Below, piece after piece: positions 16,168 to 60,969 of a stretch of DNA of 64,000 nucleotides. A program made the translations under genes and the position numbers. Below the pieces are notes generated by a model. That model had not been told where the DNA came from. It was given only the letters and a program-made list of their open reading frames with translations, and did no database searches. This DNA comes from Deltaproteobacteria bacterium (GTDB lineage Bacteria; Myxococcota_A; Polyangia; HGW-17), in assembly GCA_016937155.1 (NCBI GenBank), contig JAFGWM010000032.1, forward strand, positions 1-64,000. The letters are read 5' to 3'. The stretch's first letter is position 1; every line of letters starts with the position of its first letter.

Positions 16168-16196
16168 TTGGAAAAGAGTGTTCACTCAATTAATAT
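16168..16196 (+). promoter_or_regulatory. Sigma-70-type promoter with internal palindrome
   Basis: TTGGAA (16168-16173) and TAATAT (16191-16196) are 17 bases apart, 20 bases before the phosphatase start at 16216. The spacer contains the palindrome GAGTG-TT-CACTC at 16176-16187, placed where a bound repressor would block polymerase. This suggests regulated expression of the three-gene operon that follows. Confidence 0.5.
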
Positions 16197-16215
16197 TGTA
16201 CAGACAGGAGAAATT

Positions 16216-17943
16216 ATGGCTGGACCAAGAATATCTATTGCATGGCGAATTATTATCGGAACACTTTTTTTAATTCTGGTACTTCTGGGCGGGTTTGGTT
16301 TTCTCAGCACCAAACGTCTTGAAAAAGTTTATCTGGAAACTGGTAAGGAACAAAAAGAACAGTATATCAAAAACCTTCGGTTTGCCGGTAAAGCACAGGT
16401 TTTTACATTAGGAAAGCTTTCATCAAAATTTTTAAAATCTTCTGAGTTTAATGAACTGGCAATAAGTGTTCCACCTGTGGGCAGAGAAGATAGTAAAATA
16501 GATGCGATAAGTGTTTTTGATGAGAGAGGAAATCTTATAGGTTTTTATGATTCCCGGTATCCAGGTGCAGTTGTTAAAAAAGAAGATAAAACATATCTGG
16601 TGGGCGATCGTACCCTTGGTAAAAAAGAAGTTAATTTCAGCGGATTTCCATGGAGTGAATTTCTTGTTAAAAGAGGTGATGCGCTGGCAAAAATGAAAGG
16701 TGCTGTAAAACGTCCTGACCAGATAGGTCTTCCCAAGGACAGGGATGTTCTTAGTTCCGGCCTTGATGGTATTATTAAAAACAGTGCAGAGGATCAGCAG
16801 ATAATGTTGTTTTCTACTCCAATAATTGAGGAAAATCAATATATTGGAACAATTGCCATGATTTATAACCTGAAGTCTCTTCAGGAATATGAAAAAAGAT
16901 TAATCAAAGCGTTGAAGAAGGAACAGCAGGATTCACTAAAAAAAATAATTATTTTCGGTGGTATTTTACTCTTATTAGGAGCGATTATTGCAGTTTTTCA
17001 GGGTCTCCGAATAACCCGTCCCATCAAAAGTCTGGTGAGAAGTTTTTCCACATTTGCTCAGGGGGATCTTGGTCATAGAGTTCAGATTAAAACCAATGAT
17101 GAAATTCAGATACTTGGTGAAGGTTTTAACTTTATGGCGGATAATCTGGTAATTCTTCTACAGGAAACGGAAAAGAAAGCCGTTATGGCGAAAGAACTTG
17201 AAGTTGCCAGAACAATACAGGAAACACTGGTTCCTGAGGATAAGGTGCATCGTTTTCCATTTATTGATCTTGTTGGCTATTTTCAGCCTGCATCAGAAAC
17301 TGGTGGTGACTGGTGGTCTTATTATAAATTGAAAAATGATAGAATTCTTGTGATTATAGGGGATGTAACCGGACATGGAGTTCCCGCGGCAATGATTACT
17401 GCGGCAGCAAATAGTGCATTTGATACTATTTTGGCAATTGAAGAAAAAATACCTGATCTTAATTATGTAATGAGTGTTCTTAATCAGGTTATTGCTGCCA
17501 GTGGAAAAGGGCAGTTTTTTATGACGTGTTTTGCATCAATTATAGATCCCAACAAGAGTAATATAGTTTTTGCAAATGCCGGGCACAATTTTCCTTATAT
17601 GTACAGACCGTCCGAGGATAAATTTGTGCAGATGATGGCCAGAGGATCAAGACTTGGTGAAGTTTCTGAATCAGGAGCATATGAAATAAAGGAAATGGAG
17701 CTTCTTCCTGAAGATATAATCGTCTGGTATACAGACGGAATAATTGAAGATGAGAATCCAGAAGGTATGGAGTATGGTGAAAAAAGATTCAGAAGAATCA
17801 TTAAGGCTGAGTATACAAAACCGCTGATACAACTGAGAGATAACGTAGTAAAGGATGCTAATGATTTTTATGATGGAATTCCACATCAGGATGATCATAC
17901 TATGGTGTTTGGTAGGGTAAAATCAAAGAATCAACCCGAATAA
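16216..17943 (+). CDS. Membrane sensor PP2C/SpoIIE-type serine phosphatase with HAMP
   Basis: A 575-residue inner-membrane signalling phosphatase of the RsbU/SpoIIE group. It has a first membrane helix at about residues 10-32, a periplasmic sensor of about 200 residues, a second helix (IIIFGGILLLLGAIIAVFQGL), a HAMP domain (TRPIKSLVRSF...GDLGHRVQIKTNDEIQILGEGF) and the PP2C domain with metal-site motifs ETGGDWW and GDVTGHGVPAAM and the late aspartate in YTDGI. Relatives dephosphorylate anti-anti-sigma (STAS) proteins in partner-switch control. No STAS or HATPase partner lies here. The start ATG at 16216 follows CAGGAGAAATT; an in-frame TTG at 16168 falls in the promoter. It leads an operon with an exported TPR protein and a periplasmic binding protein, which may supply its signal. 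Confidence 0.88.
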   Translation: MAGPRISIAWRIIIGTLFLILVLLGGFGFLSTKRLEKVYLETGKEQKEQYIKNLRFAGKAQVFTLGKLSSKFLKSSEFNELAISVPPVGREDSKIDAISVFDERGNLIGFYDSRYPGAVVKKEDKTYLVGDRTLGKKEVNFSGFPWSEFLVKRGDALAKMKGAVKRPDQIGLPKDRDVLSSGLDGIIKNSAEDQQIMLFSTPIIEENQYIGTIAMIYNLKSLQEYEKRLIKALKKEQQDSLKKIIIFGGILLLLGAIIAVFQGLRITRPIKSLVRSFSTFAQGDLGHRVQIKTNDEIQILGEGFNFMADNLVILLQETEKKAVMAKELEVARTIQETLVPEDKVHRFPFIDLVGYFQPASETGGDWWSYYKLKNDRILVIIGDVTGHGVPAAMITAAANSAFDTILAIEEKIPDLNYVMSVLNQVIAASGKGQFFMTCFASIIDPNKSNIVFANAGHNFPYMYRPSEDKFVQMMARGSRLGEVSESGAYEIKEMELLPEDIIVWYTDGIIEDENPEGMEYGEKRFRRIIKAEYTKPLIQLRDNVVKDANDFYDGIPHQDDHTMVFGRVKSKNQPE

Positions 17944-17953
17944 GGGCTATATC

Positions 17954-20395
17954 ATGAATAAATTATTAAAGTTTTCAGTCATCATTATTCTCACTACAAT
18001 TGCTTCTATTGCAGGTGCTCAGAATACCGGTGGAGCCGCCAGAGATGCCATCAACCAGTTAAAAAAAGGTGAGCGGGCACTTGATGCGGGGAATACCAAA
18101 GAAGCATATGACAGATTTAAAAGAGCCAGTGAAATAGATAAATCATTGATTGCCGCCTGGGAAAAAATGGCTTCTCTCGATTATGCTGAAGGTCGTTTTG
18201 ATAGTGTCATAAGTAATTGCAAAAAGGGTTTGAATTCAAACTCCGGGGATGCAGATCTTATGATGTGGATGGGTCTGGCTCTTCAGTACAAGGGAAATGT
18301 AAAAGAGGGTACTGATTTTCTGAAAAAAGCAGTTAGCAGCAAACCGTCCCTTGCCCTGGCATATTTTGAACCGGCAAGAAGAATTGGGCTTGGAGTGTAC
18401 TATCGTAAAATCAACGACTGGAAAAAAGCTCTTGATGCATACACAAAATTTATAAAATATCGTCCATCTGAAATCAGTAAAGATACCGATTATATGGTTT
18501 TTTTCCGAACAGGGGAAATGTATCTTAAACTTGGTAATTCCGCCAGAGCTCTTGAATTCTGTGATAAATCGCTGAAAAAGAAAAATCGTTATCCAAGTGC
18601 ACAGTGGTGTAAGGCTGAGGCACTTCGGGGTTTAGGACGGTACATTGAATCTCTCCCATATTTTAAAAGAGTTGCATCCTATGGAGGTAAAAATCCGCGT
18701 GTGTTTCTGGGTTTGAGTGTTGCTCTTTTCTACAGTGGAAGTGCCAGTCAGAGTCTTAGTTATGCCAAAAGATATCTGGGTTTCAGACCTCAGGATCATG
18801 AAGGACACATTCTTTTGGGGGATCTTTTTTATGCAATGGGTAAAAAACCTGACAGTATAAGAAGTTATCAGAGAGCAATTAAACTAAATCCGGAAATGAA
18901 AAAGGTGTACATCAAAACCGGGGTTACCTATATTTCCATGAAACAGTATTTCAAAGCAATTGATATTCTTGAGAGAGCTCTTAAAAAGTGGCCTGGTGAT
19001 GAAAAAATACTGGTTCCCCTTACACATGCATTTTTACTTGAGAAAAAACCTGAACTTGCATGGAAACTCCTGAGTTCAATGGATATGAATAAGATGGGAG
19101 AGAAACTTCTATCTGTTTATGGTATGACTGCGGTGGAGTTTAATAAAATTGATGAAGGTGTGAAAATTCTGGATATGGCTTTATCCAAAAGACCGGGGCA
19201 TATTAAAACAAAGGAGTATGCAGTCAGGAATCTTCTCAAAGTGGGATACAGAAATATCAAAGTTCGAAAATTTGATGAAACACTTGGTATTCTTAAAAGA
19301 GCAAGAGAACTTCAGCCTTCCAATGTTGATGTTCTTAGAAATATGGCACTTATTAATATTTTACTTGGAAAATCAGATATAGCTGAAAAAAATATAATTG
19401 AAGGACTGAAATCCATTCCTAATGATTTCAACTTTAACCATCTTCTTGGAAGAATCAGGCTTGATCAGGGAAAATATAAAGAAGCTGTCAAATTACTTGT
19501 GAAAATAAGAGAAAAGGCAAGAGCCAGAACGAGCGGTATTCAGGCAAGAGTGGAGATGGATCTCGGTGTTGCCTATATGTTGGACAACGATCCTGAAAAT
19601 GCTGTGGATGTTTTAAAGGAAGCCTACTCAAATTCACTTAATGAACCAAATCTAGCTAAAAAAATTGAAATAAACCTCGTAAGAGCAATACTTGCAAGAG
19701 CTACTCAGCGACTGGGTAACGGAAAAGGACGTGATGCTCTCACCGATCTTGAAAGTCTTGATGAATACAAGGTTAAATTATCCGATACAGAAAACAGACA
19801 GAAGGATTTTCTGATTGCTCTTGCACATGTTGATCTGGGTAATTATAAGGAAAGTTCTAAATATATGAATAGATTGAAGAAAAAAGGAAGTATCAAGGAT
19901 CTTTTTAAATCCCCATGGGATAAATTTGGTCAGGATCTTCTCACTGCGTATTTGGCATACAGGCAGGGAAAATATGATGTTGCAAAATTTAATTTTTATA
20001 AAACCTATAAAAATGCACCTGTAAAAATTAAGGTTCAGATAAGTAACTTCATCAGATCCTGTGATGAAATAGCTGGAAGTTCCATGCTTAAGGCAGGGAA
20101 AGCAGCTCTTGCATTGCAGTATTTCAAAAATATACCTGATCAGGGTTTGAGTGTTGCTTCCAGAATGAATAAGGCACTGGCTCTCTATAAAACAGGGCAG
20201 CAACTGGCAGCTATTGGTATGTGGAAAGCCCTGAATACTCCTATGGCTGCATGTAATCTGGGTGCCCATTATCACAACGCAGGGAACAGTGCGGAATCCT
20301 TTAAATATCTTAAGAAATGTTCATCAGCAGGTCTGGGAGGGAAGAAAATTAAATCCCTTATAAAAATTAAAAGTCTCATTTTTGGATACAAATAG
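17954..20395 (+). CDS. Exported TPR-repeat protein, 813 residues
   Basis: An N-terminal signal peptide (MNKLLKFSVIIILTTIASIAGAQ, cleavage likely after AGA) is followed by TPR units almost to the end, for example AYDRFKRASEIDKSLIAAWE, SIRSYQRAIKLNPEMKKVYI and AIDILERALKKWPGDEKILV. I estimate 13 or more units. It should be periplasmic or outer-membrane associated and serve as a protein-docking scaffold. It begins 10 bases after the phosphatase gene and ends 9 bases before the binding-protein gene, so the three are one operon. A role linking the phosphatase sensor to the binding protein is inference. No enzyme motif is seen. Confidence 0.8.
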   Translation: MNKLLKFSVIIILTTIASIAGAQNTGGAARDAINQLKKGERALDAGNTKEAYDRFKRASEIDKSLIAAWEKMASLDYAEGRFDSVISNCKKGLNSNSGDADLMMWMGLALQYKGNVKEGTDFLKKAVSSKPSLALAYFEPARRIGLGVYYRKINDWKKALDAYTKFIKYRPSEISKDTDYMVFFRTGEMYLKLGNSARALEFCDKSLKKKNRYPSAQWCKAEALRGLGRYIESLPYFKRVASYGGKNPRVFLGLSVALFYSGSASQSLSYAKRYLGFRPQDHEGHILLGDLFYAMGKKPDSIRSYQRAIKLNPEMKKVYIKTGVTYISMKQYFKAIDILERALKKWPGDEKILVPLTHAFLLEKKPELAWKLLSSMDMNKMGEKLLSVYGMTAVEFNKIDEGVKILDMALSKRPGHIKTKEYAVRNLLKVGYRNIKVRKFDETLGILKRARELQPSNVDVLRNMALINILLGKSDIAEKNIIEGLKSIPNDFNFNHLLGRIRLDQGKYKEAVKLLVKIREKARARTSGIQARVEMDLGVAYMLDNDPENAVDVLKEAYSNSLNEPNLAKKIEINLVRAILARATQRLGNGKGRDALTDLESLDEYKVKLSDTENRQKDFLIALAHVDLGNYKESSKYMNRLKKKGSIKDLFKSPWDKFGQDLLTAYLAYRQGKYDVAKFNFYKTYKNAPVKIKVQISNFIRSCDEIAGSSMLKAGKAALALQYFKNIPDQGLSVASRMNKALALYKTGQQLAAIGMWKALNTPMAACNLGAHYHNAGNSAESFKYLKKCSSAGLGGKKIKSLIKIKSLIFGYK

Positions 20396-20404
20396 GAGCT
20401 TCAT

Positions 20405-21268
20405 ATGAAAGCCATTCTTTTTTCATTAATTTTTATGTTCACTGGAATAAGCGGTGTAAATGCTCAGAGTAAAATTAAAAAGTTGCGTTTTGGAATATAT
20501 GCACCCAATACCGCATTCAGTTCGAACTCGGAACGATGGAGTTATATCAAGCGTATAGCCACATATGTGCAGGGTGTAACAAAGATTCCATGCTCAGGTG
20601 CTGCTTATGCTCAGTCTGGTGCTTTTGCTGGAAGTTCGGGAGCACTTGACTTTGCACTTGTTGATGGTGTTTATATGGCTACCAGAGGTGGATATAAAGT
20701 TCTTGCAACATCGGTTTATGGTGGTAGCAGTAGAGCAGCATGGGGTTTATACAGTCGTCTGGGAAACAGTTTTCAGGCTCTTCGTGGGAAAACACTGGTT
20801 ATTTCAAGAGCTGGAGGGAATGAAATTTCTCTTGTTGAAGGTCTTTTATATGGTGAAGTTCAGGTTAAAAAGTACTTTGGAAATGTAAAAATTGTTCCTG
20901 ATCTTGCGAGCGCTATTCAGACTGTCAGAAATGGTGGTGGTGATGCCGTTTTTGCACCTATGAAAATGGCAGGTGGTCTTTCCCTTGTATTTCCGGCTGG
21001 AAGTGTTCCAAATGCATCCTTTGTTCAGATAAACCGGAAAATACCTGCCGATATAGTAGCCAAGGTAAGAAGTGCAGTTTTGTCCATCGGCAGTGGTGGT
21101 CTTGGGGGTATGGGAGGACCGGCCAGAGGCGGTATCATGATGGGGAAACCAAAAGCAGTGTTTATGAGTAGTTTCCCTGGTATACTTGGTTTTCAGTTTA
21201 AAGGATTTTTAAAACCCTTTAAGGGTAATTTTGAAAAAGCACCTCTTTTAAAAACATTTATTCACTAA
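20405..21268 (+). CDS. PhnD-like periplasmic substrate-binding protein
   Basis: A 287-residue exported protein. The signal peptide ends in GVNAQ, and the mature part starts KIKKLRFGIYAPNTAF, the typical first strand of phosphonate/phosphate-type (PhnD) binding proteins. Further family-like stretches are GALDFALVDGVYMATRGGYKVLAT, LRGKTLVISRAGGNEIS and AIQTVRNGGGDAVFAP, matching the two-lobed binding fold. A Gly/Met-rich insert (SGGLGGMGGPARGGIMMGKP) near residues 233-253 is unusual. No ABC permease or ATPase accompanies it. It sits 9 bases after the TPR gene, with AGGAG overlapping that gene's stop. I infer a sensory binding protein for the phosphatase encoded upstream rather than an importer part. 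Ligand unknown. Confidence 0.75.
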   Translation: MKAILFSLIFMFTGISGVNAQSKIKKLRFGIYAPNTAFSSNSERWSYIKRIATYVQGVTKIPCSGAAYAQSGAFAGSSGALDFALVDGVYMATRGGYKVLATSVYGGSSRAAWGLYSRLGNSFQALRGKTLVISRAGGNEISLVEGLLYGEVQVKKYFGNVKIVPDLASAIQTVRNGGGDAVFAPMKMAGGLSLVFPAGSVPNASFVQINRKIPADIVAKVRSAVLSIGSGGLGGMGGPARGGIMMGKPKAVFMSSFPGILGFQFKGFLKPFKGNFEKAPLLKTFIH

Positions 21269-41833: not shown

Positions 41834-42724
41834 TCAGGAACTGGTTCGTCTGACAATAAGTTCTGCTAAAAGACCCATTGCAAGAGTCTGAACACTTGTC
41901 ATTATAAGTACAGCAGAAGTTGAATCCATTATTCTCCCCGTGACAAAATAACTGCCAAAAAGTACAATGATTCCGGCAAGAAGAAGAAAAAGTGAGAAGG
42001 GAAAAAATACCCTCAACGGTCTGAAATACATAATTGTCCTGACGATCAGTGACATAAAATTTAAAGTGTCATAAATTGGTCTTATTTTGGATTTGCCCTT
42101 CCTGTGATGATAGTCAATGGGTATATATTTTACTCTGTAGCCATCAACGATCATTGCAATGGATATTGTTGACGTAAAAGAAAATCCATCAGGAAGAAGG
42201 CGTATATACTTAAGAACCACCTCTCTTCTCATTAAACGTAATCCACTGTTCAGATCCGGAATTTTTCTGCCACTGACATATGATGCCAGAGAGGTGATAA
42301 AAGCCTTTGCTGGACGTCTTACAAGGGGAATGTGAACGCTGTTTCCTGTTCTTGAACCAATTATCATATCGGATTCATCCATGTATCTGGATAAATTAAG
42401 TAATTCAGTTTCAGGATAAGTCCCATCGGCATCAATTATTGCAAACCATTTGGTTTTAATGGAATGAACCCCGGTTTTAAGGGCTGCTCCATATCCTCTG
42501 TTTTCAGCATGACTTATAGTTTTTACACCGGATTTTTTTACAATTTCACTGGTTCCATCAGTGGAACCATCATCAACCACTAAAATTTCCCATGGAAAAT
42601 CAGCATCTTTCATAGCATCCTGAAGTCTGCTTAATACTTTTTCAATACCTGTTGCTTCATTGTATGCAGGCATTATTATGGTTAAATCGTTTATTTCCTG
42701 TTCAGGTTCTTTAGACAAATTCAT
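41834..42724 (-). CDS. Family 2 glycosyltransferase (DPM1-like) with membrane anchor
   Basis: A 296-residue GT2 enzyme. The nucleotide-sugar domain has IIMPAYNEATGIEKVL, VVDDGSTDGT (DDGS motif) and AIIDADGTYPE (DxD). SDMIIGSRTGNSV and ISIAMIVDGYRVKYIPIDYHHRKGKSKI fit the dolichyl/undecaprenyl-phosphate mannosyl- or glucosyltransferase group. Two hydrophobic segments at the C-terminus (VFFPFSLFLLLAGIIVLF and SVQTLAMGLLAELIV) anchor it to the inner membrane. It overlaps the upstream kinase gene by 4 bases. Its product, a lipid-linked sugar, probably feeds a glycan or glycoprotein pathway; the sugar is not determinable. Confidence 0.85.
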   Translation of the reverse strand: MNLSKEPEQEINDLTIIMPAYNEATGIEKVLSRLQDAMKDADFPWEILVVDDGSTDGTSEIVKKSGVKTISHAENRGYGAALKTGVHSIKTKWFAIIDADGTYPETELLNLSRYMDESDMIIGSRTGNSVHIPLVRRPAKAFITSLASYVSGRKIPDLNSGLRLMRREVVLKYIRLLPDGFSFTSTISIAMIVDGYRVKYIPIDYHHRKGKSKIRPIYDTLNFMSLIVRTIMYFRPLRVFFPFSLFLLLAGIIVLFGSYFVTGRIMDSTSAVLIMTSVQTLAMGLLAELIVRRTSS

Positions 42725-43998
42725 TTACCCTTCACCAGTAAGAGAATTATAATTATGATTATTATGAAAACAGTGGCTCCGATCATCATATAAATATACT
42801 TCATAAGATCCGCTGTCTTTGGTTCTTCAACAGGGGGCTCCTTAATTTGATTGATGAGATTATCTGTTTTTATGTCAACTTCCTCATCCATGTCAGAATC
42901 ATCAATATCCAGTTCCAGTTCCATAACTTCTTGAAGATTAAAGTCTTTTTTTACAATGGTATCAAAGGATTCGTGTCTTCCGCTATCCTGAGGATTCATA
43001 TTAAAATCAAGTGTTGATGCAACACGGGAAATATCCATTTCCGCCTGAAATTCATCCGGAAAAATTCTTTTCATAAGATCAGATAATTCCTGAGGCTTAA
43101 ATTTATAGGGTTCTAAAAGTCTGTCTATATCTTCCGAAAATTCTCTGGCTGTCTGGTATCTGTCTTCACGTTCTCTGGCAAGAGCTTTCATAACAACAGC
43201 ATCAAGTTCAGGGCTTATTCTTCTGTTGATTGATGATGGAGGATTAATCTCGGATTTCCGAACTTTCTCCATCAGAACAGTTTCACTTTCGCCCTTAAAC
43301 AGTCTCTCCATTGTCAGCATTTCGTACAGAATAATACCGAGGCTGAAAATATCAGTTCTTCCATCAAGTGGAAGTCCACGAATCTGCTCCGGTGACATAT
43401 AACTGAATTTTCCCTTTAATGTGCCTATTTCAGAAGTAAAGCGTGCTTTTGTTTTAGCAATTCCAAAGTCAATAAGTTTAACATCTCCGTCATAGGCAAC
43501 TCTTATATTTGATGGGCTTACATCACGATTAACTATGTTGAGAAGTTTTCCCTCTTCATCCTTGAGATTGTGGGCATAATCAAGTCCCTTTGCTGCCTCA
43601 GAGGTTATAAAAAGAGTCACTGGAATTGGAATACGCTGACCATTTAGCTGAACTTTCCTGAGAATGTGATTAAGATCTTTTCCACAGATGTAATCCATAG
43701 TGAAATAACAGGTGTTTCTGTACCTTCCACCTTCATATGTTTTGACAATATTGGGATGGTCGAGCATACTTGCCAGTTTCCCCTCAGCCATGAACATATC
43801 AACATACTTTTGTTCTCTTGCCAGTCTATTGCGCATGCATTTAAGAGCAATCATCTTATCCTCTTTCATACGCTTGGCTCTGTACACTTCAGCCATTCCA
43901 CCTTTGGCTACAAGACCCAGCATCAGATATTTTCCGAACATTGCAGGATTTTCAGGTGATCCAGGATCCAGTGCTAAGGAATCTGCTTTTTTAGTCAT
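42721..43998 (-). CDS. Membrane Ser/Thr protein kinase
   Basis: A 425-residue Hanks-type kinase with a C-terminal membrane helix (YIYMMIGATVFIIIIIIILLL). The kinase domain has the Gly loop AKGGMAEVYR, the ATP lysine Lys53 in ALKCM, and IDFGIAKT with Asp177. SYMSPEQIRG and TDIFSLGIILYEML are conserved. The catalytic loop reads NRDVSPSN (Asn157-Arg-Asp159) where HRD is usual; the catalytic Asp remains, so it may still be active. The region between kinase and anchor (300-400) is acidic, and the external part is only a few residues. It overlaps the glycosyltransferase gene by 4 bases and follows the larger kinase gene by 98 bases. Confidence 0.88.
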   Translation of the reverse strand: MTKKADSLALDPGSPENPAMFGKYLMLGLVAKGGMAEVYRAKRMKEDKMIALKCMRNRLAREQKYVDMFMAEGKLASMLDHPNIVKTYEGGRYRNTCYFTMDYICGKDLNHILRKVQLNGQRIPIPVTLFITSEAAKGLDYAHNLKDEEGKLLNIVNRDVSPSNIRVAYDGDVKLIDFGIAKTKARFTSEIGTLKGKFSYMSPEQIRGLPLDGRTDIFSLGIILYEMLTMERLFKGESETVLMEKVRKSEINPPSSINRRISPELDAVVMKALAREREDRYQTAREFSEDIDRLLEPYKFKPQELSDLMKRIFPDEFQAEMDISRVASTLDFNMNPQDSGRHESFDTIVKKDFNLQEVMELELDIDDSDMDEEVDIKTDNLINQIKEPPVEEPKTADLMKYIYMMIGATVFIIIIIIILLLVKGK

Positions 43999-44096: not shown

Positions 44097-46529
44097 TTAT
44101 CTGTACCGCTTATGAAACCAGTTCAACCAGTTGAATCTCATTTTTTCAAATGAAAGGGAATCCATTCCTGAAAGATTCAAAGCTTTTTCCATGAATTTTT
44201 TTTCAGAAAGCGGCATCTCGATAGCCCTGACATTACCCGTAGATGAATGAAGTTTTCCTGATTTATTCAGTCTGACTAAAGAGGTGTGGGTATCAATAAC
44301 TGCACTTCTCAGGAGGATACTCAGAAGTTTTTTCCTTTTTGTCGCAATGTCCGGTCGAAAATTTATTTTATTTTTAATTTCAAACGGGTTTGTATAAAAG
44401 ACCGCGTTTTTATTTGAATAAAGCTTACTGTTGACAGGTAATCTTGGAATTGATTTCTTTACGGGTCCCTGCTTTGAACCTGGAGGAAGAATAAATATAT
44501 TCTGGCCTTCTCCGAGAATGAATTCAACAAACTTTTCTGCCAGCTCTTTTCTTGGTGAAAATCTGAGAACACTAACCGGATCAGGTGTGAAAACAGCTGT
44601 TTCCGGGGGAAGAATAAAAATCATTTTCTGAGTCAGGGAAGCATCAGATTCAGTTTTCCAAAGGAAGTATAGAAAATCAATGAGTATCCCACAGACTGCA
44701 TTTTTATCTTCGACTAAATGATGCATAATTCCACTGGAACTTCTGAGGAAGTGTCCGGAAATATTCGATGAAATTCCTGTTATTACTTCCCATCCCTTTT
44801 TCCATCCTAAAGACTGGAGGATCATTTCATAGATCATTAGAGTGGATGAAGATAGAGTAGGATCAGCACTTACCAGTGAATTAAAAAATGTTCTTTTTGA
44901 AAGATCAGTCCATGATGCCGGAAGTCTGATTTTTTTCGCCGCCAGTTTTTCCTTGTTACAGACAATGCCGAATCCACTTAGTGCAGTGGCAAACCATTTT
45001 TTCTGAGGATCTATCAGATTGATTCCCTGAAGAGTAGATGGAATATTCTCAGTAATTTGAGGGTCCGGATTAATTTTGACTGAACATGATTTTTTTTCTC
45101 CGTTTATGGAAACACAGTTTGAAGATGCAAGTTTGCGATGGAGCTGCTGGCCACCTCCAAGCATTACATCAACCATTTTGTTCGGATTTTTCTTTGTGGA
45201 AGACAACCTCATTCTTAGAAGAAAAAGTTCATCCTTGCTGGTAACCCATTTGATTGAAACATTTCTGCCAAATTTACGGTTCATGTATCTTTTAAAACCC
45301 TCTTCATATTCGGAATTAAGATCTGGCGGGTGGGCACTTAGCACATGAAGTGTTTCAATATTAAGATTTTCAACTTTATCTGTTTCGATCTTTTCAGATT
45401 TTTTTTGATTGGCATAAAAGTATATACCGATTCCAAGTAATGCAGTAATTCCCATAAAGAGAATAGGACCAAACCAGGTTTTGCGGTTTTTTGGTTGAGG
45501 CTCCGAATTAATATCAAATAGAACCTGCCTGATTTCCATATTCAGGGATGAAGCACTTTCAAATCTTTCAAATGGTTCTTTGGAAAGACAACGAAAAATA
45601 ATATCAGCCAGTTTTTTATCAATGCCATGCTCATCAGAAATAGCAGGAGGTGGATCCTTTAAATGACCACTTATAACATCCATTGGAGTGGTGCCTAAAA
45701 ATGGTTCATGACCTTTAAAACATCTGTATAAAATAACACCAAAACTATAAATATCACTGGATGTTGTAATATCCCTTCCTCTGCACTGTTCAGGTGACAT
45801 ATATAGCGGTGATCCCTTGATGACTCCCTGAACAGTCTGATTGTTGGTGTATCCCTCTTCCTTGAATTTTGCTATTCCAAAATCAAGTAGTTTTACATGA
45901 AAATCTCCATGGGAATTTCGCCCAAGAAAAATATTTTCAGGTTTAAGATCTCTGTGAATAATATTTTTTTTATGAGCAGCATCCAGTGCAAGTAAAATCT
46001 GAGGAAGAATCTCGTATGCTTCCGTATAACTCAACGTTGAATGTTTTTTGAGAAAATCTCCAAGATTTTCTCCTTCAAGAAGTTCCATTACAAAGAAAAA
46101 ATTGCCTGATGGCAGTTGTCCAAAAGAGAAAATATCAATGATATGTTCAGAGCGGATTTCATTTGCCGCCTTTGCTTCATTTTTAAAAGCCTGTACAATA
46201 TCAGTATCTTTACTGTATTTGGTTTTTAGTACTTTAACAGCAACTTTTTTCCCTATAATGGGATGTTCTCCGCTGTAGACCCAACCCATTCCTCCTTTTC
46301 CAATGATTCCGGTAATAATATACTCTCCTGCCATTTGTCCTATAAGATTTTCAGGGATGTTACTCAGGGAATCAGGTTTGATTATATCTTCCTGATTATC
46401 CGGAGAAATATTTTTACCGGACACCGGCATTTTTAGAGTTGATGAAGTGGCAATATCCTGTCCGCAAAAACCACAGAATTTAGCATTGTTTTCATAGGAA
46501 CGGCCACATTTGAGGCATTTTTTCGTCAT
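44097..46529 (-). CDS. Ser/Thr kinase fused to a periplasmic solute-binding domain
   Basis: An 810-residue receptor kinase. It starts with a zinc ribbon (CLKCG...CGFCG, Cys5, 8, 19, 22). The kinase domain (about 70-340) has GKGGMGWVY, Lys99, HRDLKPEN (192-199), DFGIA (216-220) and MSPEQ, and looks active. A membrane helix at 353-372 is followed by about 430 residues outside. Residues about 390-720 resemble an iron/polyamine-type binding protein: VDVMLGGGQQLHRKL, WFATALSGFGIVCNKEKL, LPASWTDLSKRTFFNSLVSADPTLSSST, GWEVITGISSNI. A helical tail ends the protein. A ligand outside should steer the kinase inside. It follows the Na+ symporter gene by 12 bases. Confidence 0.88.
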   Translation of the reverse strand: MTKKCLKCGRSYENNAKFCGFCGQDIATSSTLKMPVSGKNISPDNQEDIIKPDSLSNIPENLIGQMAGEYIITGIIGKGGMGWVYSGEHPIIGKKVAVKVLKTKYSKDTDIVQAFKNEAKAANEIRSEHIIDIFSFGQLPSGNFFFVMELLEGENLGDFLKKHSTLSYTEAYEILPQILLALDAAHKKNIIHRDLKPENIFLGRNSHGDFHVKLLDFGIAKFKEEGYTNNQTVQGVIKGSPLYMSPEQCRGRDITTSSDIYSFGVILYRCFKGHEPFLGTTPMDVISGHLKDPPPAISDEHGIDKKLADIIFRCLSKEPFERFESASSLNMEIRQVLFDINSEPQPKNRKTWFGPILFMGITALLGIGIYFYANQKKSEKIETDKVENLNIETLHVLSAHPPDLNSEYEEGFKRYMNRKFGRNVSIKWVTSKDELFLLRMRLSSTKKNPNKMVDVMLGGGQQLHRKLASSNCVSINGEKKSCSVKINPDPQITENIPSTLQGINLIDPQKKWFATALSGFGIVCNKEKLAAKKIRLPASWTDLSKRTFFNSLVSADPTLSSSTLMIYEMILQSLGWKKGWEVITGISSNISGHFLRSSSGIMHHLVEDKNAVCGILIDFLYFLWKTESDASLTQKMIFILPPETAVFTPDPVSVLRFSPRKELAEKFVEFILGEGQNIFILPPGSKQGPVKKSIPRLPVNSKLYSNKNAVFYTNPFEIKNKINFRPDIATKRKKLLSILLRSAVIDTHTSLVRLNKSGKLHSSTGNVRAIEMPLSEKKFMEKALNLSGMDSLSFEKMRFNWLNWFHKRYR

Positions 46530-56228: not shown

Positions 56229-56924
56229 ATGACAGAGGAAAATAAAAAATCGAAAAATTCAGATGATGTTTCATTGCAGGAAAAGAAGAATAATATTCTG
56301 TGGGATATTATCAAAGCAATAATGAAAAATACGTGGGGAATGAGAATAAGTCTGGGTATGTTAGGTTTTTTACTCTTCATTATTGGATATTTTATGGGCA
56401 ACTGGGGGACGTCCCACCTGGAGTCGGAAATAAAAAACAGAGAATCAGATGTTGTTCAATGCAAGAGGGAAAAAAATCAACTGAAGGATCAGTTGCAAAA
56501 AACAGAAAATGAGAAAACAAAACTTCATATGAAGCTTTCAGAAAGTAAAGAAAAAATTAATTTTATACAGCAAAGAGAAAAAATTCGCAAACCATTGAGT
56601 CAGGCGTTAATAAGCTGGAAAAATAAAAAATCAAAGGATACTGTGGAAAAAATATATGCTTCATTAATAAATCTAAAACAGGAATCAAAAAATTCCATGG
56701 GGCTATCAAAGTTTTTTTACAAAACCACAATCAGCAGACTTAACAGAGCCATCGTTTTGATAAATAATGGCTGTACTGATACAGAGAAAAAACTCAATTC
56801 TGATGATGAAACTTCTAAAAAAAATGAAAATTCTGAAAATAATCTGAAAGAGGTGGAATGTCACAACAGAATTGCAGAGATTCTATCAAGTGCACTAGAT
56901 GTTCTTCCTCCTCCAAAGGATTAA
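56229..56924 (+). CDS. Coiled-coil membrane protein
   Basis: A 231-residue protein with an N-terminal cytoplasmic part of about 35 residues, one membrane helix (MRISLGMLGFLLFIIGYFMG) and a long coiled coil outside or inside (HLESEIKNRESDVVQCKREKNQLKDQLQK and onwards). It ends in a helical domain with a pair of cysteines. The start ATG at 56229 is after AGACAGGG; a GTG at 56217 overlaps the pgeF stop. The next gene starts one base after its stop. It may be a helper of the large TPR protein encoded next; not recognised otherwise. Confidence 0.65.
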   Translation: MTEENKKSKNSDDVSLQEKKNNILWDIIKAIMKNTWGMRISLGMLGFLLFIIGYFMGNWGTSHLESEIKNRESDVVQCKREKNQLKDQLQKTENEKTKLHMKLSESKEKINFIQQREKIRKPLSQALISWKNKKSKDTVEKIYASLINLKQESKNSMGLSKFFYKTTISRLNRAIVLINNGCTDTEKKLNSDDETSKKNENSENNLKEVECHNRIAEILSSALDVLPPPKD

Positions 56925-56925
56925 A

Positions 56926-59900
56926 ATGATGAAGTTTTTTGTTACAATTATTTCTACAGTAATTCTTCTGGGACCTAATTATTCACTGGCCTGGAAGGTT
57001 AAACGAAATCAGTTTAATCCTGCAATGATATCACGATACAAAGGAATGCTTTCCTCTGCACCGGATGATGGCTTTGCTTTTCGTAAACTTGTGGGCCTTT
57101 ATACAACATATTCAAGTATGGATGCACTGATAATAGAGTATCGTCGTGCTTTAAAAAGAGACCCTGAAAATTACAGTCTCAATGTTGTGATTGGGCGTCT
57201 TTATTTGAAAATAGATAGGTTTGATGAAGCTGTTTCCCATCTGGAAAAAGCTCAGAAAAAAGATCCGGCAAGGTTTGAATCTTATAAAAATCTTGGAAAT
57301 GTATTTGTCAGAAAAAGAAAGTTTATAAAAGCAAAGGGATATCTCGATAAGGCTCTCTCCCGCGTTAAGGGAAAAGTAATCAGGCAGAGACTTCTGAAGG
57401 AGCTTGTCAGACTTACGGTTATTGGGGGTGATATAAAAAATGGTGTCAGGTATTTTGACATGCTTTTAGCTCTACGCCCCGGGGATTTTCAGACAAGATG
57501 GGATTTCGCCTCACTTCTTGTACAGGGAATGCATTTCGAAAAAGCCATGAAGCAGTATAAAAAGTTGTACACTATGTCTTATGGTGATTCACGGCGAAAA
57601 GTGGAAATTCTTAAAGCGATGGGAGATACATCCGAAAGGATGGGAGAAGATAAAAAAGCTGTAAAAACTTACTGGAAAGCTATGAGTATGACGGCAAGTG
57701 GTCACTGGATACGAAGAGAACTCGTAAATAAACTGGTGAGTATTTCCCGAAGAAGAGACGAGCTTCATCTGCTGATAAATGATTTTAAAAGAAGATGGGG
57801 TAAACCAACAGGTTTTCAGTATTCCATAATGGCCAAAATATACGGCGAAATAGGGCAGTTTGATAAGGCTGCGGAACTATATCGGAGGGCTATCCGAAAT
57901 GAACCTTCAAATGTTGATTATCGTTCTGAATTAATTGCTCTCCTTGAAAAAAGCGGGGCATCTCCAGAAGTTATAATCAGAGAACAGAAAGCTCTGGCGG
58001 ATGCTGCTCCCGGACAGATAAAGTTTTCAATAGAACTTGCCAAACGATATGAAAAAGCCGGAAATAAAAATAAAGCCCTTAGTATAACCCGTAATTTACT
58101 CGCTAAAAATCCTTCAGATGCAGGTCTTTATCTTGCTTTAGCTGATCTGTATGCTCAATGGAATAAACCAGATAAAGTAATAAAAATGTATGAAAAACTG
58201 GTTGTGCTTGAACCTTTGGATTATGAACATTACGTCAATCTGGGACAGCAGTACTGGGGAAGAGGTAAAAGAAAAAAAGCGATTTCAACCTGGAAAAAGA
58301 TTCTTAAAAAAGGAATGTTCCCTGTAAAAGAGGATGGATTTTTTATCATTTCGGGTCTTTTTCTAGAGACCCAGCAGTTTAATGAAGCCAAGAACTACGT
58401 TGAAATGGCAATTTCCGGGAATCCCCAAAATACGAAATATCTGTTTTTAAGATCACAGGTTGAAATAAAACTTAGACAACCGGAAAAAGCTCTTCTTACG
58501 CTGGAAAAAGCGTTGAAAATAAGTCTGAAGAGCAATGATGTGGTTACTGTTAAAAAAATCAGGAAAAATCTTCTTAAATTATGGAAAGATATGGGAGTTC
58601 TGGAAAAGAAACTTTCTGAAAGACTTCGAAAATGGAGAACCTCGAACATCTCTCAGGGAATGTTTCTAGCTGAGGGGTTTACAACTGCTGGAAATGTAAC
58701 TAGGGCAGAAAAAATTTATTTGAGGATGAGAAAAGCAAATGGAGCAATGAGTGAACCACTATTGGGATTGATTTCACTTTATGAATCAATTGGAAAGTAT
58801 GGTGCACTGATAAAACTTCTGGAAGAAGCTGTGAAACTCATACCTCATCGTGCGAGGGATTTTTATGAGCAACTGAGCAATACGTGGGCAATTCTTGGAA
58901 ATGATATTAAAGCCAGACAATATCTTCGTAAAGCTCTTGAAAAAGGTGCTAGGGATTCCAAGTCATGGGCAAAAGCAGGAGATCTTGCAATCAAACTTGA
59001 GGATTACCGAGGTGCAATAAAAGCTTTTCTGGAAGCCATACGTCTTGATCCTTATGAAATGGATTATTATTTTTCGCTGGCCAGTTTATACGTACAGTTA
59101 GCTGAAGTAACCAGTGCATCAAAGGTGTATTACTCAGTCATCAGTAGATCAAGTGAAGATGACCTTGTTGAGAAGGCTGCCAGAGCTGCCTGTGATCTTG
59201 ATGAACTTACAGGAAATCTGGGAAAGCTAGAGAAAGTTCTTCATCCTCTTTCATTTGTTTATGCACACAGAAGTGTTTTCGGGAAAATGCTTCTGGAAGT
59301 TTATAAAAGATATGTTCCCTGGCTTTACAGTCAAATCAGGAATTCAACTTCTATTAAGGAAAAGAAATACTTAACCAGAGAAATTCATAGATTGAGAACC
59401 AGAGCCTTAAAGCCTCTTCTCGAGAGCCTTACCGGAGAGGAATCTCTTGCAGATAAAGAGATTGCAAGATCTCTTCTTGCACAGTTGGGAAATCCAAATA
59501 GTGCAGTGCCTATTATCAGACTGGCAAAAAGAATGTTTGAACAGGGTAATAAGAAAAATATACAGGGTAAACCGACAAAACTGAGTTCAGGTGAAAAGGA
59601 TTTTATTCGCAAGTCTGTTTATATTGCCAGTGAATTTAAAACAAATGAGATTTCCAGAGAACTGAAATTTTTTGCATCTCAGGAAACTGATAAAGTGATA
59701 CAGGTTATTGCTCTCAGAGGATTATCTCTGATAAATACTTCACCCTCCTGGTTTGCAACGTTTCTAAATAAATATCCAAGTGTTTCACATGCGACCGCAG
59801 GATGTGCTGTTGCCGCAAGAGAAAAACGATATCATAGTAAAATTTATTCAATTATCAGGGATACAAAAATTCCGCCCATGATAAGAATAGGTTGTATGAA

Positions 59901-60969
59901 GGGTATAATTGCCTATGGTGATTCTTCAAAAAACTCTGAGTTGATGAAAATAATTTCAGATACAGATCCTGATTACTACATTCGAAAAAATACTGAGAAA
60001 CTATTGAGTTTTGTTATTGGTAAAAAAGATCTTCCATTTTTAATAAGTCATTATTTGAACGAAAAAAATGAAAGTAAATCACGTTGGCTTAGAGGAATTC
60101 TGGAGACTTCAGGAGTAATAAAATCTGCCCAAAAAAATTTGCAGTTAGGACTTGATTTTAATTCATCATCCCTTGAGTCTGAGGTCTTTAATCTGATTAA
60201 ATCTCAGACGGGCAAAAAACTGATTGAACATGGTAATTTTATTAATATTTCAGGAAAAATTCAATCAGTCAGGCTGATTACGGAAATTGTTGAAAAATCC
60301 CATCGAAACTGTCCGGATTTGACTGGATATTTAAATCTTATGGAAAAGCAACTGACATCGAAGAATTTAAAAAATTTTATTTCCATTTGGAATGATGATC
60401 TAAGTTTAAGGGGTATGGATCGTATATGCAACAGTGATACAAGAAAGTATGGAATCCAGTTATGGAATAAAATGAGGAAACAAATAATTTCCAGTATTTA
60501 TATTTCAGAGTGGTCAGTGAAAAGACGACTGTTTTTAAGTGACCTGGTTTCCGGCAATATTACTCTCATGCAGTTTGTAAACTCCAATGAAAGTATTATG
60601 TTTAAAAAAAGTGTACTGACATCATTGGGATATATAAAGTCTGATTATAAAACAGGTGGTTTCTCCGGATTAAAAAATACACCACCTGAATTGAAATTTA
60701 TTGTTTATAAACTTTATCTCGCAAAGAACTTTGACAGAAAAATTGTTGAGCAAATTCTTAAGGGAGAAGATTTCCCACTTTCTATTGCAGTAATGGAAAT
60801 GATTTCAGAAAGGAAAAGAGGTTTTGATCTTCTGCAGGGAGTTTTATCAGGAAATTCTACCACCCTTGCAACCAAAGCTTATGAAATCCTGAAAAAGAAC
60901 AATAAAAAAGAGCTGTTGTTAAAAGTATCACCAAAACAGATATATTTTCTTGAATCATTAAAGAATTAA
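56926..60969 (+). CDS. Very large exported TPR and HEAT-like protein, 1347 residues
   Basis: An exported scaffold (signal peptide MMKFFVTIISTVILLGPNYSLA) of 1347 residues, the longest gene in the window. The first 850 residues are TPR units such as ALIIEYRRALKRDPENYSLNVVIGRLY, AVSHLEKAQKKDPARFESYKNLG, ALLTLEKALKISLKSN and AIKAFLEAIRLDPYEMDYYFSLASLY. From about 870 the pattern shifts to HEAT-like helical repeats (KEIARSLLAQLGNPNSAVPIIRLAKRMF; DKVIQVIALRGLSLI; PPMIRIGCMKGIIAYG). The ATG at 56926 follows AAAGGA. It follows the coiled-coil gene by one base and its stop overlaps the convergent RluA-like gene by 4 bases. A periplasmic assembly platform is inferred; the cargo is unknown. Confidence 0.8.
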   Translation: MMKFFVTIISTVILLGPNYSLAWKVKRNQFNPAMISRYKGMLSSAPDDGFAFRKLVGLYTTYSSMDALIIEYRRALKRDPENYSLNVVIGRLYLKIDRFDEAVSHLEKAQKKDPARFESYKNLGNVFVRKRKFIKAKGYLDKALSRVKGKVIRQRLLKELVRLTVIGGDIKNGVRYFDMLLALRPGDFQTRWDFASLLVQGMHFEKAMKQYKKLYTMSYGDSRRKVEILKAMGDTSERMGEDKKAVKTYWKAMSMTASGHWIRRELVNKLVSISRRRDELHLLINDFKRRWGKPTGFQYSIMAKIYGEIGQFDKAAELYRRAIRNEPSNVDYRSELIALLEKSGASPEVIIREQKALADAAPGQIKFSIELAKRYEKAGNKNKALSITRNLLAKNPSDAGLYLALADLYAQWNKPDKVIKMYEKLVVLEPLDYEHYVNLGQQYWGRGKRKKAISTWKKILKKGMFPVKEDGFFIISGLFLETQQFNEAKNYVEMAISGNPQNTKYLFLRSQVEIKLRQPEKALLTLEKALKISLKSNDVVTVKKIRKNLLKLWKDMGVLEKKLSERLRKWRTSNISQGMFLAEGFTTAGNVTRAEKIYLRMRKANGAMSEPLLGLISLYESIGKYGALIKLLEEAVKLIPHRARDFYEQLSNTWAILGNDIKARQYLRKALEKGARDSKSWAKAGDLAIKLEDYRGAIKAFLEAIRLDPYEMDYYFSLASLYVQLAEVTSASKVYYSVISRSSEDDLVEKAARAACDLDELTGNLGKLEKVLHPLSFVYAHRSVFGKMLLEVYKRYVPWLYSQIRNSTSIKEKKYLTREIHRLRTRALKPLLESLTGEESLADKEIARSLLAQLGNPNSAVPIIRLAKRMFEQGNKKNIQGKPTKLSSGEKDFIRKSVYIASEFKTNEISRELKFFASQETDKVIQVIALRGLSLINTSPSWFATFLNKYPSVSHATAGCAVAAREKRYHSKIYSIIRDTKIPPMIRIGCMKGIIAYGDSSKNSELMKIISDTDPDYYIRKNTEKLLSFVIGKKDLPFLISHYLNEKNESKSRWLRGILETSGVIKSAQKNLQLGLDFNSSSLESEVFNLIKSQTGKKLIEHGNFINISGKIQSVRLITEIVEKSHRNCPDLTGYLNLMEKQLTSKNLKNFISIWNDDLSLRGMDRICNSDTRKYGIQLWNKMRKQIISSIYISEWSVKRRLFLSDLVSGNITLMQFVNSNESIMFKKSVLTSLGYIKSDYKTGGFSGLKNTPPELKFIVYKLYLAKNFDRKIVEQILKGEDFPLSIAVMEMISERKRGFDLLQGVLSGNSTTLATKAYEILKKNNKKELLLKVSPKQIYFLESLKN

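Follow-up and report, generated by a model that had tools for sequence, protein, structure and literature searches.

What does a membrane-bound phosphatase sense when its gene is followed directly by genes for an exported tetratricopeptide-repeat protein and an exported solute-binding protein? We studied this question at a locus in a 64,000-nucleotide stretch of bacterial DNA (contig JAFGWM010000032.1; the whole stretch is referred to here as the window) from a genome of 4.1 Mb. Relatives carrying the same protein are metagenome-assembled genomes labelled Myxococcota, Deltaproteobacteria or Polyangiaceae. We put at about 0.6 the probability that the operon forms the input side of a partner-switching Ser/Thr module, in which the solute-binding protein (BP) drives the phosphatase (PP) via the TPR scaffold (TPR).

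A three-gene operon without transporter genes

All three open reading frames of the order phosphatase, TPR protein, binding protein given in a preliminary description of this DNA were confirmed on the + strand (Table 1). The intergenic spacers are likewise 10 bases (17944-17953) and 9 bases (20396-20404), and the operon contains no ABC transporter genes. The start of PP is more likely the ATG at 16216 than the TTG at 16168, since GGAGAA lies just upstream of the former and this start agrees with those of homologues. The operon is flanked by ftsK- and thiC-like genes, names given from their translations. These flanks are also kept within the window's own family and gene order there thus carries little weight. 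An Rfam scan of the window at gathering scores gave no match, and promoter- and terminator-like patterns showed no clear excess over shuffles. Away from the operon, the window also encodes a TPR-rich protein of 1356 aa (56899-60969, + strand).

Table 1. Coordinates of the operon's genes and of the two parts of the phosphatase in the window.
Feature	Position	Strand	Description
PP	16216..17943	+	membrane-bound HAMP-PP2C (SpoIIE/RsbU-type) phosphatase, 575 aa
PP periplasmic sensor part	16321..16929	+	residues about 36-238, between two hydrophobic segments
PP2C/SpoIIE catalytic domain	17335..17916	+	residues 374-567
TPR	17954..20395	+	exported, 813 aa, built of tetratricopeptide repeats
BP	20405..21268	+	exported PhnD-fold (type II) solute-binding protein, 287 aa

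PP has an intact catalytic domain and a variable sensor part

PP matches the SpoIIE/PP2C (PF07228, E 1.1e-38) and HAMP (PF00672, E 2.6e-12) families and has hydrophobic segments at residues 4-35 and 239-268. The part between them is thus about 200 residues long, in agreement with the periplasmic sensor of that size first ascribed to PP. It is modelled as a long helix and a beta-rich domain, and is very variable from clade to clade. The metal-binding acidic residues that a PP2C/SpoIIE phosphatase of a partner-switching module should have are intact, D365, D383, D507, D559 and D560 being invariant in all 22 aligned members. The nearest solved PP2C domain to the PP model is that of SiaA (Z 25.7), in structural alignment rows (VIA-align) that span mainly residues 333-571. 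PP scores 80.5 bits against the SiaA equivalog NF038263, for which the cut-off is 700 bits. PF07228 matches three places in the genome, the PP of the window at 136.7 bits and the others at 32.4 and 23.1. HAMP-bearing SpoIIE phosphatases of myxobacteria have been noted earlier (PMC2887360), in an account whose relevant sections do not feature the partners found here.

BP is predicted to have a PhnD fold

TPR has many TPR matches, and its sole hydrophobic segment is N-terminal. The N-termini of both TPR and BP are predicted to be of the export type, without a lipobox as judged by eye. BP itself matched no Pfam or NCBIfam model at E<=1, and its own genome, searched with the PhnD-type model PF12974 at 1e-3, gave no match. 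Relatives do match PF12974, 17 of 36 aligned BP family members doing so at E<=0.1 (best 1.2e-9). Against solved structures, the BP family profile matched the PhnD-fold protein BstB (7t1m, E 3.5e-6) and, weakly, PtxB (0.054). The AlphaFold model of BP has a mean pLDDT of 84.9, with the C-terminal part poorly predicted, and keeps a complete two-lobed PhnD fold. It aligns to PtxB, ArrX, AioX and PhnD at Z of about 17-19 (PtxB 5lq1: Z 18.8, rmsd 2.8, 220 aligned; ArrX: Z 18.5). The label "PhnD-like", a guess in that BP has no Pfam match of its own, is borne out by the PF12974 matches of its relatives, the BstB match and the modelled fold. The top two Foldseek matches of the model are ArrX and AioX, both of which signal in partnership with histidine kinases (PMC5908839). 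As a hint that BP also senses, this modelled likeness is suggestive only, as a common fold proves no function.

Gene order is conserved across Myxococcota

Of 59 genomes searched, the window's own included, 25 have BP homologues, and 58 BP loci from 19 Myxococcota families were gathered. TPR lies directly upstream of BP at 53 of the 58 loci by script and at 55 by eye (19 families), two loci (L042 and L110) having been missed by the script only through overlapping partial matches. The three true exceptions (L065, L066 and L068) all come from one many-copy genome. PP is present within the stretch at 33 of the 58 loci, in 17 families, and at 25 of these 33 it lies just upstream of TPR, ending 2.0-4.2 kb before BP (16 families). 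The gap is wider in five loci (L052, L058, L059, L060 and L115), the order is TPR-BP-PP in L061 and L063, and PP is divergent in L065. Six of the 25 stretches without PP have less than 3 kb of sequence upstream.

The preliminary description had staked its reading on two points, that the triple order is conserved and that BP homologues do not always sit with ABC permeases. The order is conserved, as counted above, and an ABC-ATPase motif was matched in only 2 of the 58 stretches, both times about 6 kb from BP. BP thus lacks the co-encoded permease and ATPase genes of an ABC substrate-binding protein, and we rejected a role as an ABC transporter component. Chance neighbourhood or local synteny was also rejected, given that the direct order is found in 16 families and that BP and PP co-occur even when apart. 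Possible gene fusions, suggested by long open frames at BP in genomes rich in G+C, proved to be overlapping frames; no natural fusion among the parts was found. Evolutionary distances of PP, TPR and BP are correlated (Spearman 0.70-0.75, 20 loci) but are explained by shared ancestry, and we do not take them as evidence of contact.

BP is present in two to eight copies in some genomes. Genome G017 (L043, L044, L057 and L064-L068) has eight BP matches, some without adjacent PP or TPR, a paralogue expansion. The variable sensor part of PP and the multiple BP copies are as expected if the modules serve different ligands.

BP and PP co-occur even when apart

Profile surveys were extended to 377 genomes of the phylum, with up to six candidates scored per genome for BP and three for PP. 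BP was found in at least 48 genomes at E<=1e-10 and in at least 39 at E<=1e-30, and PP in at least 40 at E<=1e-100. At the two stricter thresholds both proteins occur together in 37 genomes, with BP only in two (G243 and G245) and PP only in three (G020, G221 and G273; Fisher p 3e-45). Nine more genomes have weaker BP matches without such a PP; counting them gives a table of 37/11/3/326 (p 8e-38). These p-values ignore shared ancestry and are descriptive. Outside the window's class, among genomes that contributed no row to the profiles, PP is present in 22 of the 24 genomes with BP, and BP in 22 of the 24 with PP.

Eleven genomes with BP loci lacking PP were searched whole, and PP was found elsewhere in ten of them (G002, G022, G030, G046, G029, G187, G206, G276, G155 and G119). 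In the last two it lies on the contig of BP, about 10 kb off. A whole-genome search of G243 (82% complete) gave no PP, and the BP-less genomes G024, G032 and G048 gave none at 1e-40. The three genomes with PP only have a STAS gene just upstream of PP and no BP at 1e-10; their assemblies are incomplete to differing degrees.

A STAS protein with two Cys pairs accompanies PP

Clustering the neighbouring genes and reading the clusters revealed a protein with a STAS core carrying an INSxGVRxW loop, followed by two Cys pairs. One type of this protein ends in a C-terminal hydrophobic anchor. To our knowledge, the STAS proteins of RsbV/SpoIIAA systems have neither the Cys pairs nor the anchor. All 19 aligned rows share the loop serine, which lines up with the DSAG-loop serine of the antagonist TM1442 in a weak match (E 0.0034). 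Phosphorylation of the conserved loop serine is the canonical STAS mechanism, as set out in the passages on it in PMC8256260. Judged by its sequence, the protein would thus be a STAS antagonist with a phosphorylatable loop serine, as a partner-switching module requires.

Counting part of the STAS matches, at least 20 of 48 PPs have a STAS gene less than 2.5 kb upstream on the same strand, and in L121 the two genes abut. A short STAS type is encoded within about 120 bases after BP at eight loci. In L038 it is followed by a PAS/HisKA/HATPase histidine kinase, and related genes are present in other loci.

A STAS gene does exist elsewhere in the genome, where the preliminary description had suggested looking for one with an anti-anti-sigma role. 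It lies on another contig in the window's own genome and inside the operon in relatives. The own-genome protein is of the anchored type (G000:C25:91838-92725, 268 bits), has the loop serine and is encoded directly after a TPR protein of 1446 aa. This TPR protein is 26.1% and 24.8% identical to the TPR proteins of L041 and L043 that precede the STAS gene upstream of PP. Since this pairing resembles that of other clades, the block seems to have been split in the window's lineage, with the large TPR and STAS on one contig and PP-TPR-BP in the window.

Surveyed at thresholds of 1e-6 and 1e-20, the STAS profile matched 50 of the 51 genomes positive for BP or PP and 3 of the 46 other genomes tested, a comparison that is partly circular, several alignment rows having come from these genomes. 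The one exception among the 51 (G007) is 70% complete, and in G004 and G006 just a 733-aa double-STAS protein was matched at that strength. The three positives among the 46 are G037, G052 and G118, the last of which has a weak BP match. The window's own genome also has, at G000:C51:97580-98548, a 754-aa frame that encodes two STAS/Cys domains belonging to this family, with a weak PF13581 match about 5 kb from the gene. Similar double-STAS proteins of 733-844 aa recur in relatives.

Other neighbours of the operon

In five families (f43, f50, f59, f61 and f67) the gene after BP encodes an ATPase whose N-box and GGAG(M/L)G motifs are RsbW-like, as read by eye. In one fetched subset of 20 loci, 15 have such an ATPase directly after BP, and six of these 15 were seeds of the search model. 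Its Pfam scores are below the cut-offs, and the f50 gene after BP, which had no Pfam match at 0.001, was recognised as an RsbW-like ATPase later. The window's own genome has five PF13581 matches, of which one exceeds the cut-off; none could be linked to the operon.

The neighbours of the BP-TPR pair in f50 are the ATPase and an Omp85-type gene, not PP; the Omp85-type gene follows TPR, BP and ATPase in L118 (4918-6552), L120 (7609-9396) and L122 (5451-7073). One f6 genome has an MlaD-domain gene just upstream of TPR-BP (L050, 12651-14300, - strand). Within the window, a gene on the - strand (44097-46529) encodes a fusion of a protein kinase (PF00069) with a solute-binding domain (PF13343, SBP_bac_6, E 5.8e-16), and a second kinase gene adjoins it (42721-43998, - strand). 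By its domain matches, the fusion gene is a second site in the window that joins a predicted binding-protein fold to Ser/Thr phosphorylation.

A model for ligand control of PP, and its rivals

In the model that we favour, exported BP would sample a small molecule in the periplasm and TPR would hold it against the periplasmic part of PP. A ligand-dependent rearrangement would then reach the PP2C domain by way of the second membrane helix and HAMP, and this domain would take phosphate off the loop serine of the STAS protein. The Cys pairs of this putative substrate may be zinc-ribbon-like, and it would usually be anchored to the membrane at its C-terminus. The RsbW-like ATPase, or in other families the histidine kinase, encoded beside BP could be the opposing or downstream partner. 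Speaking for this reading are the operon and its conserved order, the co-occurrence of BP, PP and STAS, the lack of ABC permease partners, the modelled PhnD fold with ArrX and AioX as nearest matches, the intact PP2C residues, the invariant STAS serine and the RsbW-like ATPase after BP. What we infer is the contacts between BP, TPR and PP, the ligand, the role of STAS as substrate, which way control runs, and the output. Counting against this reading are the stretches without PP, the absence of STAS from the operon of the window's own family, the own genome's want of an RsbW-like partner beyond the five PF13581 matches, the f50 loci where ATPase and Omp85 genes take the place of PP, and the low Pfam scores of the ATPase.

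The TPR-BP pair could instead act as a carrier in the periplasm or in envelope assembly, handling lipids for example as proposed for BstB/BstC, and be co-regulated with the phosphatase without being its input. The best sequence match of the BP profile is indeed the sterol-binding BstB, Omp85 and MlaD-domain genes adjoin the pair in f50 and L050, and PP is not nearby in 25 of 58 loci. However, the Omp85 and MlaD neighbours are each confined to one family, whereas the neighbours that recur encode signalling proteins (PP, STAS, RsbW-like ATPase and histidine kinase), and BP and PP co-occur tightly. We therefore regard a carrier pair as unlikely.

It is also rather improbable that PP senses directly by its own periplasmic domain, with BP and TPR as ligand-free effectors or modulators and BP a degenerate structural part. 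PP does have its own folded periplasmic part in the model, BP is too diverged for PF12974 and its C-terminal part is poorly predicted. Yet the modelled BP retains the full two-lobed PhnD fold, and the TPR-BP pairing is more constant than that of PP with TPR.

Very improbable is a role of PP in opposing the eukaryote-like Ser/Thr kinases common in these genomes in place of a STAS partner: two protein-kinase genes do lie in the window, with homologues of them in 6 of 38 loci of one subset, but kinase genes, unlike STAS, have no fixed place beside the operon, and SpoIIE-type phosphatases are known partners of STAS proteins in the systems treated in the relevant parts of PMC8256260 and PMC2887360.

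Taken more widely, the input-module reading raises the prospect of a widespread, hitherto undescribed Myxococcota signalling system. BP and a periplasmic TPR would form the sensor of a PP2C phosphatase, and this enzyme would determine how far a Cys-pair STAS protein anchored in the membrane is phosphorylated, in a type of partner switching driven by a binding protein. Genomes have as many as eight BP copies, which might differ in ligand. We advance this generalisation tentatively, at a little under even odds. If it is true, the ligand, the scaffold, the phosphatase and the STAS partner each become open to separate testing in a defined set of proteins, and Myxococcota SpoIIE and STAS proteins that are now orphans would be tied to outside signals.

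Comparison with known systems

A search of open-licence papers returned no title or abstract describing binding-protein sensing for partner-switching phosphatases. Histidine kinases and PknG are known to sense with the help of binding proteins, and the nearest precedents for our loci are AioX/ArrX, GlnH-GlnX-PknG and SiaABC.

The sterol proteins BstB and BstC of Methylococcus capsulatus resemble the pair described here in that a PhnD-fold protein shares one locus with a second, TatT-type binding protein. They differ in their proposed role, lipid transport beside sterol synthesis genes, and in the absence of a phosphatase from the locus as outlined in PMC10942540.

On the output side, RsbU-RsbV-RsbW and SpoIIE-SpoIIAA-SpoIIAB share with our loci a SpoIIE-type phosphatase and the STAS loop serine, and their GHKL-type kinase may have a counterpart in the RsbW-like ATPase, but they have no periplasmic binding-protein input in the description that PMC8256260 gives of their core components. 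SiaABC(D) of Pseudomonas aeruginosa is a partner switch with the kinase SiaB and the substrate SiaC, and its phosphatase SiaA shares two membrane segments, HAMP and PP2C with PP (PMC7647112). SiaC is instead phosphorylated on threonine, and siaABCD, as presented in the main account of that paper, has no binding-protein or TPR gene.

On the input side, GlnH-GlnX-PknG of Actinobacteria runs, as proposed for our loci, from a periplasmic binding protein through a membrane protein to Ser/Thr phosphorylation, with a TPR domain involved. In the outline given in PMC9769921, however, both the enzyme, a kinase, and the TPR domain are cytoplasmic, and GlnH is of the amino-acid-binding type. In AioX/ArxX/ArrX with AioS/AioR, a PhnD-fold periplasmic sensor is, like BP, encoded with a membrane signalling protein and without ABC genes. 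The output of these three-component systems is a histidine kinase and a response regulator, with no TPR protein, PP2C or STAS in the overview of them in PMC5908839. At our loci a histidine kinase is encoded downstream in some relatives only, and the partner of BP would be a PP2C phosphatase.
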